From IMG/VR virus record IMGVR_UViG_3300001460_000132, positions 1-28,544 of that record: a DNA stretch of 28,544 nt; one strand, written 5' to 3'. A model generated the notes under the pieces. The model was not told where the DNA came from. It made no database searches and saw only the letters and a program-made list of their open reading frames with translations. The stretch comes from a virus. Positions within the stretch are counted from its first letter, which is position 1, and each line of letters opens with the position of its first letter. Shown here piece by piece: positions 6,967-24,705 of the stretch. A program made the translations under genes and the position numbers.

Positions 6967-7525
6967 GATACTTGACATACTAGCTAAGAGGCATAATGAA
7001 TGGCTTAATATGGCAAAGAGTTTTAAATTAAACACTAATGATGCTAATGAGTTAGTTCAAGAGATGTATTTAAGAATGTATGATTATACAAAAGATGTAA
7101 AAAGAATTATGTATAATGAAACCGAAATCAACACATTTTATATATACATTACATTAAGAAATTTATATTATAGTAAGTTTACAAATTATAACAAGAATAA
7201 AAAAACAGTGTTATTTTCAGACATAGACACTGAAAAATTTAATTATATTATGAATCAAATAGTTTATGATGTTGACCAACATAATGATAATTACAAAAAA
7301 AAAGTTAACTTAGAGGTGTTGTACAATAAGATTGAAGGTGTAATAGAAGAATGGTATTGGTACGACAAGAAGCTTACTAAGTTATATTTAAATACTAATA
7401 TGAGTATGCGAGATATTAGTAAAGAAACTAAAATAAGTTTAAGTTCAATATTTAATACATTAACAAATGCCAAAGAAAAAATTAGAAAAGAAAGCAAAGA
7501 AGAGTACAAAAAATATAAAAGCTAA
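6956..7525 (+). CDS. Phage RNA polymerase sigma-70-like factor
   Basis: The 189 residues fit a minimal two-domain sigma factor. The N-terminal part (residues about 8-45, HNEWLNMAKSFKLNTNDANE then LVQEMYLRMYDY) resembles region 2, with the 'D/N-A-x-x-L-V-Q-E-x-Y/F' helix. The C-terminal 60 residues (TKLYLNTNMSMRDISKETKI then SLSSIFNTLTNAKEKIRK) form a region-4-like helix-turn-helix. A phage sigma of this kind would redirect host RNA polymerase to middle or late promoters. The linker is long and Asn/Lys-rich. Its own promoter motif is unknown; the over-represented AATTCAATA words are one candidate. The end overlaps the next gene by 59 bases. Confidence 0.75.
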   Translation: MSSKILDILAKRHNEWLNMAKSFKLNTNDANELVQEMYLRMYDYTKDVKRIMYNETEINTFYIYITLRNLYYSKFTNYNKNKKTVLFSDIDTEKFNYIMNQIVYDVDQHNDNYKKKVNLEVLYNKIEGVIEEWYWYDKKLTKLYLNTNMSMRDISKETKISLSSIFNTLTNAKEKIRKESKEEYKKYKS

Positions 7526-17097: not shown

Positions 17098-17116
17098 TCA
17101 GATTATATATGTTATA

Positions 17117-17233
17117 TATATATACATAGTGTATATATAGCATAGTGTAATATATAACATAGTGTAATATATAACATAGTGTATATATATATAGTGTAAT
17201 ATATAACATAAAGTATTATATTGCATAGTGTAT
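17117..17233 (+). repeat. Palindromic repeat array B (six copies, about 17-bp period)
   Basis: Copies of the array A core (variants of TACATAGTGTA) begin at 17123, 17139, 17156, 17173, 17188 and 17222; spacings are 16, 17, 17, 15 and 34 (two periods). The first copy is a near-perfect palindrome with ten-base arms (TATATATACA and TGTATATATA around TAG). Later copies vary in the left arm (AGCA, AACA, TATA, TGCA) but keep TAGTGTA. The array fills the gap before the structural module. No protein is encoded here; open frames through it are low-complexity Tyr/Ile/Met strings. Confidence 0.85.
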
Positions 17234-17333
17234 ATCATGTATAACATATACATACATAATATCATATATAACTGACATATATTCAGTTGGAGATATGTAA
17301 AGTACAAAAACAATATAAATTATTAATTATAAT

Positions 17334-18050
17334 ATGGCACTAAAACAAATCGAATTAGAAGTACCAACAACTCTATCTAACATTAAACTTTGGCAATACC
17401 AAAAGTATATGAAAGTCATAGAGCAGAACAAGACAGAAGATGCCGAAGACACAGAAAAAGTAAATGATTTCTTGAATATGAAACTTGTAGAAATATTCTG
17501 TAACGTATCATTAAGAGATGTAAGCAAAATACCTTTGAAAGAATACGAAAAAGTTTTAACTATACTAAACAAAGCATTTGAAGAGAAACCTAAGCTTATA
17601 CAAAGATTTAACTTGTTAGACGTAGATATGGGGTTTGTACCTAAGTTAGATGATATTACTCTTGGTGAATATGTAGATATTGAAACTAATATTACTGATT
17701 GGCAAAAAATGCATAAAGCTATGGCTGTATTGTATCGACCTGTTAATTTTAAGGCAAAAGATAAATACACAGTTGCACCATACAAGGTAAATGAAGAAAT
17801 ACAAGAACTGATGAAAGAGATGCCATTAGATGTAGCAATAAGTTCAATGGTTTTTTTTTACGCTTTAGGGAAGGAGTTACTGGGAGCTATACCGAAATAT
17901 TTGGAGCAACGTCTGAAGAAAGAGGATATGCAACAGCTAGAGATGCATTTGCAAAAAAGTGGGGTTGGTATCAATCAATTTATGCACTCGCTAAAGGTGA
18001 TGTCAGAAACTTCAATACAGTTGCCGAGCTTCCACTCTACCAGTGTTTAA
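17334..18050 (+). CDS. Tail assembly chaperone, zero-frame product (gpG-like)
   Basis: The 238-residue protein starts MALKQIELEVPTTLSNIKLW and is mostly helical and acidic, with LDDITLGEYVDIETNITDWQ in the middle and PLDVAISSMVFFYALGKELL near residues 167-186. I recognise this general type from tail-assembly chaperone genes of Bacteroidota phages. In tailed phages such proteins coat the tape measure during tail assembly and are made in a short form and a frameshifted long form. The gene opens the structural module after array B. From 17859 onward its DNA also encodes a second frame (see the frameshift product). Confidence 0.75.
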   Translation: MALKQIELEVPTTLSNIKLWQYQKYMKVIEQNKTEDAEDTEKVNDFLNMKLVEIFCNVSLRDVSKIPLKEYEKVLTILNKAFEEKPKLIQRFNLLDVDMGFVPKLDDITLGEYVDIETNITDWQKMHKAMAVLYRPVNFKAKDKYTVAPYKVNEEIQELMKEMPLDVAISSMVFFYALGKELLGAIPKYLEQRLKKEDMQQLEMHLQKSGVGINQFMHSLKVMSETSIQLPSFHSTSV

Positions 18051-18121
18051 ATTATTTAGCATTTGAAAAAGAAAAAACAGATATAGAACAACAAGAATTA
18101 AAAAAAGCATATAGACAATGA
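17334..18121 (+). CDS. Tail assembly chaperone, -1 frameshift product (gpGT-like)
   Basis: The -1 frame is open from 17795 to a TGA at 18119-18121 and holds no ATG, GTG or TTG codon, so it cannot start by itself. Its later part is clearly protein-like: AFAKKWGWYQSIYALAKGDV, then RNFNTVAELPLYQCLNYLAF and a charged helical end. A -1 slip on the T-TTT-TTT run at 17852-17858 would join 175 zero-frame residues to 87 residues of this frame (262 in total). This equals the G/GT arrangement of phage lambda and many siphophages. The stop overlaps the next gene's ATG. A missing T in the assembly would give a single long gene instead. Confidence 0.75.
17850..17860 (+). other. Slippery T9 run, probable -1 frameshift site
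   Basis: Zero-frame codons are GTT TTT TTT TAC, so the heptamer T-TTT-TTT (17852-17858) lets both ribosomal tRNAs re-pair after a one-base slip back. Reading then continues TTA CGC TTT in the -1 frame. Confidence 0.7.
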
Positions 18122-18609
18122 CAAGTTTTTACGACATACTAGACAAACTTAAAACCTACCTTCAAGGTAATACAAATGTTAATTCAGTTACTTTTGGTGA
18201 TATATTTGAAGTGGACTTAGCTAAACAAACTATATTTCCATTATCACATATAATTGTAAATAGATGTACATTTCAAGACCATGTAGTTCAATTCAATCTA
18301 CAAGTTATCTGTATGGATATTGTAAACGAAACTAAACTAGATAAAAAAGATTTAGATAACTATTTTCACGATATAAATAATAAGCAAGATGTACTTAACA
18401 CACAATTTGCCGTAGTTAATGGTTTACAGTCGGCACTTAGAAGAGGAGAATTGTTTTCTGAATTATATCAAATAGATACAGATTACAGTGCTAATATGTT
18501 TGAGGACAGGTTTGAGAATTTACTTGCTGGTTGGAGTTTAGATTTATCTATTACTGTTGCTAACAATCAAATATCAGATATTAATGCTAACGGTCAATCT
18601 CCTTGTTAA
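18118..18609 (+). CDS. Tail-completion / terminator-like structural protein
   Basis: The 163-residue protein starts at an ATG overlapping the frameshift product's stop. It opens MTSFYDILDKLKTYLQGNTN, has strand-rich middle parts (FPLSHIIVNRCTFQDHVVQF, NLQVICMDIV) and ends in FEDRFENLLAGWSLDLSITV. I associate this pattern with a virion protein common in Bacteroidota phages. The size and fold pattern resemble tail terminator or tail completion proteins, which cap the tail tube. That function is inferred from neighbours; structural role is more certain than the exact one. Confidence 0.65.
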   Translation: MTSFYDILDKLKTYLQGNTNVNSVTFGDIFEVDLAKQTIFPLSHIIVNRCTFQDHVVQFNLQVICMDIVNETKLDKKDLDNYFHDINNKQDVLNTQFAVVNGLQSALRRGELFSELYQIDTDYSANMFEDRFENLLAGWSLDLSITVANNQISDINANGQSPC

Positions 18610-19193
18610 TGAGTTTCAGATTAAAAAATACAGAATTGTTTTTAATTGGATATGCTAACAGGCTTATACGTTTGGCTAAATTAGAAATAGAGAAACCTAG
18701 ACAAAGAACATATAATAGTGTTAAGTTTGGCAGTAGAACATTAAATGAGCCGTTAGATTCATCTGGTAAATTAAAAGACAGTTTTGTTTTAGACAAGAAA
18801 ACAGTTAGGAAAAACAACTTCTTTGAATTAAATGTAAAAGGTAATGCTTATGGAGAAAAAGTGGATGAAGGAACAAAAGCAGGAACGAGCCCTTCTGTAC
18901 CACAAATAATCAGTTGGATAAACAACAAACCAGTTACATTGTTAGATTCTAATCAAAACAAATTATCTAATATAACAGAAAAAGGAAAAAATAGAATAGC
19001 AAATCAAATAGCACAAAAAATAAAAAGAGAAGGTATAAGACCAACTAACTTTTTGACTGACTTAGTAAATAAAGAAATAAATAATATAATGGGAGTTGCA
19101 CCTGAAATAACAAAAGATATTAGCAATAACATAGATGATTTTATGAAAATGCTTGGTTATTATAAAAGTGGAAATACATTTAAATTAAAATAA
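18609..19193 (+). CDS. HK97 gp10-like / virion morphogenesis protein
   Basis: The ATG at 18609 shares its A with the previous TAA; an upstream in-frame TTG at 18603 would add two residues and is less likely. The 194-residue product starts MSFRLKNTELFLIGYANRLI. A central segment, NAYGEKVDEGTKAGTSPSVP then QIISWINNKPV, resembles the 'Y-x-x-x-v-x-x-G-T-x-x' part of HK97 gp10-like neck proteins. A basic helical C-terminus (NRIANQIAQKIKREGIRPTN, FLTDLV) follows. It probably acts at the head-tail joint or tail end. The assignment is moderate. Confidence 0.6.
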   Translation: MSFRLKNTELFLIGYANRLIRLAKLEIEKPRQRTYNSVKFGSRTLNEPLDSSGKLKDSFVLDKKTVRKNNFFELNVKGNAYGEKVDEGTKAGTSPSVPQIISWINNKPVTLLDSNQNKLSNITEKGKNRIANQIAQKIKREGIRPTNFLTDLVNKEINNIMGVAPEITKDISNNIDDFMKMLGYYKSGNTFKLK

Positions 19194-22796: not shown

Positions 22797-22943
22797 ATGA
22801 TAAAATATGTCCTTGATTTATTAAATTCTTCTCAATGGTATGGAGCTGGAGAAAATATAGAGATTGCCAAAGGTAAATATGCAGGAGTAAAGGATTTTAA
22901 ACAAATGAAAGAACAACTAAAAAGATTAAGACATGGCAACTAA
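22797..22943 (+). CDS. 48-residue protein before the tape measure
   Basis: The ATG at 22797 lies two bases after the previous stop; the TAA at 22941-22943 overlaps the tape measure start by 11 bases. The sequence is MIKYVLDLLNSSQWYGAGEN, then IEIAKGKYAGVKDFKQMKEQ and a basic LKRLRHGN end. It is a helical small protein, unrecognised. Fitting exactly into the gap with overlap suggests a real, co-translated gene, perhaps a small tail assembly factor. Confidence 0.6.
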   Translation: MIKYVLDLLNSSQWYGAGENIEIAKGKYAGVKDFKQMKEQLKRLRHGN

Positions 22944-24705
22944 GAAAATACTTATACAAATACAGGTTGGTGCTAAAGATGCAAATATTGCTGTAGATAA
23001 TGTAACTAAATCTCTTGAAGGATTAAGCTCTGCACAAATGAAAGTTACCAAAGTAACTAAACAGGGTCGTGCACAATCAGGATTGAATAATGCTATACTT
23101 TTAGAAACTGGTCGTTTAGCTTCTGATGCTTCTTATGGATTTACAGCTATTGCTAACAACTTGTCTCAGGTTGTTACATTATTCTCTAGTTTTGCAGAAA
23201 CCAATGGAGGAGTTGTAGCATCACTTAAAGAATTAGGTAAGTCTCTTTGGGGTCTAGGAGGTATATTAATTGGTGTTCAATTATTAATTTCGTTTGGTCC
23301 TAAAATATTAGATTTCTTTACTGGAATGGATGCGGCAGCTAAAGCAGCAGCAAAATCAACAAAGGATTTAGCTAAGTCACTAGATTCTTTAAATGCAAAT
23401 ATGGTTGTAGCTGAAGAATATCTTGATTTATTAGATGATACAAATTTATCAGAACAAGAAAGAACCAATATAACAAAAGAATTAATTAAATTAGTTCCTG
23501 ATTTAACAGAGGAAGACTTAAAATATGGAAACAATTTAGATAATGTAAGACAAAAAATTAAACTATATGCAATAGCTCAAGCTTCAAGAATAGAAATAGA
23601 CAAATTAGTTGAAGACAATTCAGAATTATTAGCAAAAAGAAGAAGAATAGATACTATAAATCAAATAAAAGATGAAGAAGAAAGAGCAAATGCAATAAGA
23701 AAATATGCTGAAGAAAACGACTTCAACGAAAAACTGATTGGAGGTAGTTTTGGTGTACAAGGAAAACTAATAGAAGAATCAAACGAAGAGCTTGCCATAT
23801 CTTTTGCAAAAAGAAGCAAAACAGTTATTGATGAATCTAATAAAATTATAGATAAAATTGATGAATTAACTGGTACTGCATTTTTAGGTGGTAAATTAAA
23901 TGATAAAGATTTAGAAAAAGACAATGAATATACTTTAACTAAAATAGGTAATGTTGACAAGGAAATAAATGCAATTAGAAAACTAAGAGATTTAAGAAAT
24001 AAATATGTTTTAAGAAAAATAGAACTAGATAATGAAGACAATATATCTGAAGCTGAATCTATAGAAAAGAAAAGAGAAATGGCACTTAATGAACTAAATG
24101 ACTTAAAAATGTCAGAAGGTTTAAAAGGACAGGCTAGATATGATATAAATGCTTATTATAATGCTTTAATTATAAAAGACGAAGAAAACAAGAAAGAAGC
24201 ATTAAGGGCAATTAATCAAGAGATAATTTTAATTTATGCAGGAGCTATTGGCAGTATGGGTAAGCTTTTTAAACAAGGTAGTGATGCATCAAAAGCTGCT
24301 GCACTTATTGAGATAGCAATTAGAACTGGTGTAGGATATGTTCAAGGTTTAGATATAGCTCAAAAATCAGCTCAAGCAACAGGACCGTTAGCCGCTTTTT
24401 CTTTTCCTGTATTTTACGCAACACAAGTTGCTGCTGTATTAGGAGCAGCCGCACAAGCTAAACAAATATTATCTAGTGGAGGCAAATCAAATCCAAGTGC
24501 AAGTATTGCTGGAGCAGGTGGACAAAGCACAATGAATGTTGAAGCTCCTGACTTTAATGTTGTAGGAGCAGGTGGAGTAAGTCAATTAGCAACTACATTA
24601 GCAGGTGTAACAGGGCAACCGTTAAAAGCGTTTGTTGTAAGCAAAGATATAACATCAGCTCAAGAACTAGAAAGAAATATTACAAACACGGCATCAGTCG
24701 GTTAA
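22933..24705 (+). CDS. Tail tape measure protein
   Basis: The 590-residue protein is mostly helical, with a hydrophobic region at about residues 95-128 (SLWGLGGILIGVQLLISFGP then KILDFF) and an Ala-rich part (MDAAAKAAAKSTKDLAKSLD). A long charged coiled coil runs from about residue 200 to 400, and a Gly/Ala-rich end follows. The segment LLETGRLASDASYGFTAIAN is typical of Bacteroidota phage tape measures. It sets tail length; at the usual 0.15 nm per residue, 590 residues suggest a tail near 90 nm, which is an inference. Hydrophobic parts may enter the host membrane during DNA delivery. Confidence 0.8.
   Translation: MATKKILIQIQVGAKDANIAVDNVTKSLEGLSSAQMKVTKVTKQGRAQSGLNNAILLETGRLASDASYGFTAIANNLSQVVTLFSSFAETNGGVVASLKELGKSLWGLGGILIGVQLLISFGPKILDFFTGMDAAAKAAAKSTKDLAKSLDSLNANMVVAEEYLDLLDDTNLSEQERTNITKELIKLVPDLTEEDLKYGNNLDNVRQKIKLYAIAQASRIEIDKLVEDNSELLAKRRRIDTINQIKDEEERANAIRKYAEENDFNEKLIGGSFGVQGKLIEESNEELAISFAKRSKTVIDESNKIIDKIDELTGTAFLGGKLNDKDLEKDNEYTLTKIGNVDKEINAIRKLRDLRNKYVLRKIELDNEDNISEAESIEKKREMALNELNDLKMSEGLKGQARYDINAYYNALIIKDEENKKEALRAINQEIILIYAGAIGSMGKLFKQGSDASKAAALIEIAIRTGVGYVQGLDIAQKSAQATGPLAAFSFPVFYATQVAAVLGAAAQAKQILSSGGKSNPSASIAGAGGQSTMNVEAPDFNVVGAGGVSQLATTLAGVTGQPLKAFVVSKDITSAQELERNITNTASVG

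Follow-up and report, generated by a model that had tools for sequence, protein, structure and literature searches.

Comparison with 272 related loci strongly supports a programmed -1 recoding at a run of nine T, or ten in some relatives, in the gene at 17334..18050 (plus strand) of the window, by which we mean the whole stretch of 28,544 nucleotides of viral DNA analysed here. The gene lies in the tail module of marine flavobacterial phages and would give rise to a short protein and to a longer one that differs from it in part. Given the strict length of this run, the frame switch probably takes place during transcription rather than during translation.

The recoded gene and its relatives

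The 17334 gene reads ATG...GTT TTT TTT TAC... and terminates with a stop codon at 18048-18050. Its zero-frame product of 238 amino acids, delimited as an open reading frame and recognised by its relatives and by a match to PHROG 32199 (E 2.7e-21), consists of a conserved body of 175 residues and a zero-frame tail of 63 residues past the T-run. The run itself occupies 17851-17859 (plus strand) and contains the heptamer T_TTT_TTT at 17852-17858, in phase for a -1 slip. The -1-frame extension LRFREGVTGSY...KAYRQ (17858..18121, plus strand; 87 codons followed by the stop TGA at 18119-18121) forms the C-terminal part of the predicted long product of about 262 amino acids and includes the peptide WGWYQSIYALAK. 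As a preliminary description of this DNA had noted, the -1 frame is open from 17795 to 18121 (108 codons and the stop TGA) and lacks ATG, GTG and TTG throughout; its placing of the heptamer, which we find within the T9, and its figures of 63 zero-frame residues past the run and about 190 nt of overlap likewise agree with the sequence.

The next gene (18118..18609, plus strand) belongs to PHROG 30964, a family without function, and its place in the gene order is conserved. In the ATGA at 18118-18121, its start codon overlaps the stop of the -1 frame, a junction which the zero frame does not join, and expression of this gene may be coupled to the long form.

Loci were gathered by protein similarity to either half of the gene, and 272 distinct loci with both halves were left after removal of duplicates; the T-run itself was therefore not a criterion of selection. 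The sample comprises metagenomic phages, prophages, the cultured Nonlabens phage P12024L (L161), the genome of Flagellimonas onchidii (L322) and the genome contigs L321-L327, L331 and L332. The second half lies in the -1 frame in all of them (272/272), as it did in the smaller sets of earlier passes (106/106, then 209/209), and among the 272 loci a fused or +1-frame second half is absent. The T-run is still intact in relatives whose identity falls to about 32%. Phylum- and family-wide scans of bacterial genomes added few prophages; two were new, L331 and L332, both with T9.

Homopolymers are error-prone in sequencing, and the frame relation could stem from an error of assembly or homopolymer length, or from decay of the gene, the real gene being continuous with T10 at this site. 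Such a continuous gene, which the preliminary description had named as evidence against recoding, was looked for in the relatives and did not turn up in any of them. The -1 relation extends across cultured, prophage and metagenomic loci, isolate genomes included, and therefore excludes an assembly error, while the substitution pattern described below is that of constraint in both frames; the probability left to this explanation is negligible.

Alternatively, the -1 segment might be a separate protein that arises from internal or coupled initiation. GenBank shows an ATG-started ORF (gene 41) in P12024L, and some ATG, GTG or TTG precedes the W-x-W motif of the -1 frame in 71/272 loci. Against this, 201/272 loci have no start codon before the motif, and ATG is present there in only 8, which also bears on the separate gene with its own start that had been raised earlier as counter-evidence; moreover, conservation of the -1 frame starts at the T-run (LxFR), and the conserved T9-T10 would have no role. 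We consider a separate protein very improbable.

The direct relatives of the gene are genes 40-41 of the Nonlabens phages P12024L and P12024S, which are hypothetical genes of the PHROG 32199 family. P12024L shares the -1 relation, the T9 and the downstream gene order with our locus; unlike it, the two phages have the region annotated as two genes, are about 32% identical to it and possess a zero-frame tail of only 25 codons. In P12024L, GenBank presents the -1 half as a short gene in its own right (gene 41, L161:12528-12695), and homology runs upstream to the T9 of that locus. Because conservation extends that far, gene 41 is probably mis-started. The present comparison corrects the annotation of the -1 half, which is a separate hypothetical gene in P12024L and would be missed or mis-started in related metagenomic phages.

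Dual coding past the run

Substitutions were counted by codon position in 42 close relatives, as changes per site at zero-frame positions 1/2/3. The counts are 1.82/0.88/5.28 upstream of the run, 2.26/2.65/3.06 in the first half of the overlap (17859..18050, plus strand), 0.81/4.16/2.41 in its second half and 0.48/3.19/2.00 past the zero-frame stop. Judged by these counts, the gene passes from single coding to dual coding and on to coding in the -1 frame alone; the dual constraint covers the first 31 codons or so of the overlap, and the later part is mainly constrained in the -1 frame. Of the programmed -1 frameshift put forward in the preliminary description, the -1 recoding with dual coding is thus upheld by the constant -1 relation and by constraint in both frames past the run, the dual part lying mainly in those first codons.

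The openness of the overlap is more than chance, since resampling in both directions gave the same low value: with the -1 amino acids fixed and the codon usage of the window, 0.8% of resamplings left the zero frame free of stops over 62 codons or more, and swapping the roles of the frames again yielded 0.8%. The zero-frame tail measures 48-90 codons in nearly all loci and extends beyond the examined stretch in three; in four loci it has only 7, 25 (two loci) or 40 codons, and it is therefore usual, but dispensable. A slip at the A6 run within the overlap (17953-17958) was rejected as a candidate: the run is in the wrong phase, its length varies from 2 to 7 among relatives, and the dual-coding constraint begins earlier.

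The T-run and the mechanism of the frame switch

The T-run has a length of 9 in 237 loci and of 10 in 35, and no other length is found among the 272 distinct loci. A lone T9 is unremarkable, as about 30% of the synonymous encodings of VFFY yield one. What stands out is its constancy: the in-phase T_TTT_TTT is present in 272/272 loci and a different heptamer is never used, and the two Phe codons of the slip site, which are never TTC, show 0 TTT/TTC changes on a tree on which five other conserved Phe codons show 42, 40, 13, 30 and 40. With C in place of T at 17858, the codon at 17856-17858 would become TTC and neither protein sequence would be altered, as Phe is kept and the Leu codon TTA becomes CTA. 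The flanks of the heptamer behave in a compensatory manner. The T before it is missing in five loci (3 origins on the tree), all of which have 2-3 T after it, and the T after it is missing in four loci (2 origins), all with 2 T before it; 0/100,000 shuffles, which ignore relatedness, reproduced this compensation. A missing flanking T is thus always offset on the other side, which argues that the total length is conserved and not the heptamer alone. In 131 kb of coding sequence upstream in these genes, a further run of eight or more T does not occur.

The preliminary description had assumed a ribosomal slip as in lambda G/GT, i.e. -1 frameshifting at T_TTT_TTT by tandem slippage of Phe-tRNA on a normal mRNA. 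This mechanism is used by lambda and many tailed phages (PMC5009743). The heptamer is in phase in every locus, the two Phe and the neighbouring Val/Leu and Tyr codons encode conserved residues, and any run of at least nine T contains an in-phase T_TTT_TTT, so that a ribosome could slip here too; the extra T's would then be present for protein or tuning reasons. Several observations speak against it. The third base of the A-site Phe codon is never C in 272 loci even though C is silent in both frames, and a motif with C at this place, U_UU.U_UU.C, is among the efficient ribosomal shift motifs in E. coli (PMC4066793), so that a purely ribosomal site should have drifted to TTC. No locus makes use of an alternative heptamer, and a flanking T that is absent on one side is always paired with extra T's on the other. 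Furthermore, we found no conserved RNA structure downstream of the run that could act as a stimulator (RNAalifold, z-scores at chance; the model covers nested structures, with pseudoknots outside it). Downstream stimulators are common at ribosomal -1 sites, but not obligatory, and at lambda-type sites a strong structure is unnecessary. Since it is a homopolymer of 9-10 T that is conserved and not a slippery site of 7 nt, a ribosomal slip is not the best fit, and we regard it as a serious, though less probable, alternative.

Transcriptional slippage at the T-run is favoured over ribosomal shifting, because TTC is lacking at the slip codons, the flanks compensate each other, the run has 9-10 T and no conserved RNA structure was found downstream; on this sequence evidence we consider it reasonably likely. 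The RNA polymerase of bacteria is known to slip where nine A or T follow one another, and its RNA-DNA hybrid measures 9-10 bp (PMC5009743), a length which the conserved run matches. Transcriptional slippage at T9 is known from Thermus dnaX (PMC5009743). In E. coli, the polymerase slips more readily on T-runs, and slippage can be detected from T7 upward (PMC6260861). This last point counts against slippage to some extent: measurable slippage of the E. coli enzyme at T7-T8 sits badly with a hard floor at 9, and to account for such a floor, the flavobacterial polymerase would have to be stiffer or a set rate of slippage would have to be under selection. Polymerase and ribosome slippage may both contribute.

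Under transcriptional slippage, one gene would yield two proteins with a common N-terminal body of 175 residues. Standard expression would produce the short form of 238 residues. Slippage of RNA polymerase at the T9, rather than or more than slippage of the ribosome, would provide a minority of mRNAs with one extra U (or two fewer), normal translation of which would continue in the -1 frame and lead to the long form of about 262 residues; on mRNAs minus one U, translation would break off after a few codons. A one-base deletion leads into the +1 frame, and this frame has a stop within 11 codons in 272/272 loci. At window positions 17859-17873 and in the relatives, a +1 stop lies two codons past the run in 233/272 loci (TTTAG/TTTAA); this early stop is partly explained by a conserved Leu codon. 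As the loci represent 272 natural variants of one slip run, a length rule for slippage by the RNA polymerase of Bacteroidetes becomes directly testable. An A9 run is also present at window positions 7295-7303 inside the 6956-7525 gene; it could be a second slippage site or a product of chance.

Comparison with known systems and identity of the product

The gene resembles lambda G/GT in being a tail-module gene with a short form and a longer -1 form, which share the N-terminal body, and in a -1 part without a separate start. A sequence or family relation to G/GT is undetectable, however, and lambda has a mixed heptamer such as GGGAAAG in contrast to the T9-T10 run; the long overlap (about 190 nt) and a position not adjacent to the tape measure gene are further differences. 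With Thermus dnaX (9 T) and Shigella mxiE/spa13 it shares a homopolymer of about nine A or T. In these bacterial genes, mRNAs of several lengths give two products by standard translation, whereas in the 17334 gene, which belongs to a phage structural module, slippage is inferred from the sequence; and its run keeps a length of 9-10 in hundreds of phages. Within an open-access collection of papers, we found no tail assembly chaperone gene for which transcriptional slippage is described. If slippage is true, the short/long logic of these chaperones has two solutions in tailed phages, one by the ribosome and one by RNA polymerase.

The body of the protein corresponds to PHROG 32199 and, in some relatives, the -1 part to PHROG 38404, both families without function. 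The conserved gene order runs from terL (in many relatives) through the 17334 gene and the genes at 18118, 18603, 19199 and 20566 to the tape measure gene; the 17334 gene thus comes first in a conserved block whose last member is the tape measure gene, with four genes in between. The gene at 18603..19193 (plus strand) is tail completion- or neck-like, with a match to HK97-gp10_like below the cut-off (E 0.065), and the P12024L gene at the same position (L161:13244-13729) matches PHROG 5, 'tail completion or Neck1' (E 4e-4). The tape measure protein (22933..24705, plus strand) was recognised via its homologues in L322 and L161, which match PHROGs 339 (E 8.6e-9) and 9483 (E 5.6e-12).

Position and product logic make a tail assembly chaperone the best reading and a likely one, the membership being putative. 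The label given in the preliminary description is plausible in terms of position and analogy; family evidence for it is absent. On the other hand, whichever mechanism applies, the recoding could be real and yet the protein could serve flavobacterial phages as a different assembly factor, of the head-tail or neck type. The gene directly follows terL in many relatives, four genes ahead of the tape measure gene; Pfam and NCBIfam contain no chaperone family that it matches, and PDB sequence and fold searches gave no meaningful match. However, where a tailed phage has a recoded short/long pair in its tail module, the pair is typically a tail assembly chaperone (PMC5009743), the block which the gene begins ends with the tape measure gene, and in a fold search of BFVD one protein annotated as a tail assembly chaperone was weakly matched (E 0.067, prob 0.82). 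A non-chaperone assembly factor appears unlikely, if by no means far-fetched. Jointly, two forms that originate by RNA polymerase slippage and act as short and long tail assembly chaperones are, as far as sequence comparison can tell, slightly less likely than not; like gpG and gpGT of lambda, they would bring the subunits of the tail tube onto the tape measure protein.

Weak matches to PHROG 166, 'tail protein', occur in 13/68 members (best E 0.0014). AlphaFold2 predicts the zero-frame product with a pLDDT of 85 and a long helix (165-208) that spans the shift point, and the -1 part as all-helical with a pLDDT of 86. Several viral proteins in BFVD, 226-280 aa long, resemble the two models alike, among them A0A6J5N0W0, A0A516L5A8 and A0A6J7WDG4 (226-267 aa), and these double matches suggest distant relatives with both parts in one frame. 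Gp10 of Flavobacterium phage 6H was rejected as a relative, its fold match being poor (TM 0.3). Just upstream of the 17334 gene, at window positions 17100-17290, very AT-rich imperfect tandem repeats (ataacatagtgtaatatat) are present.
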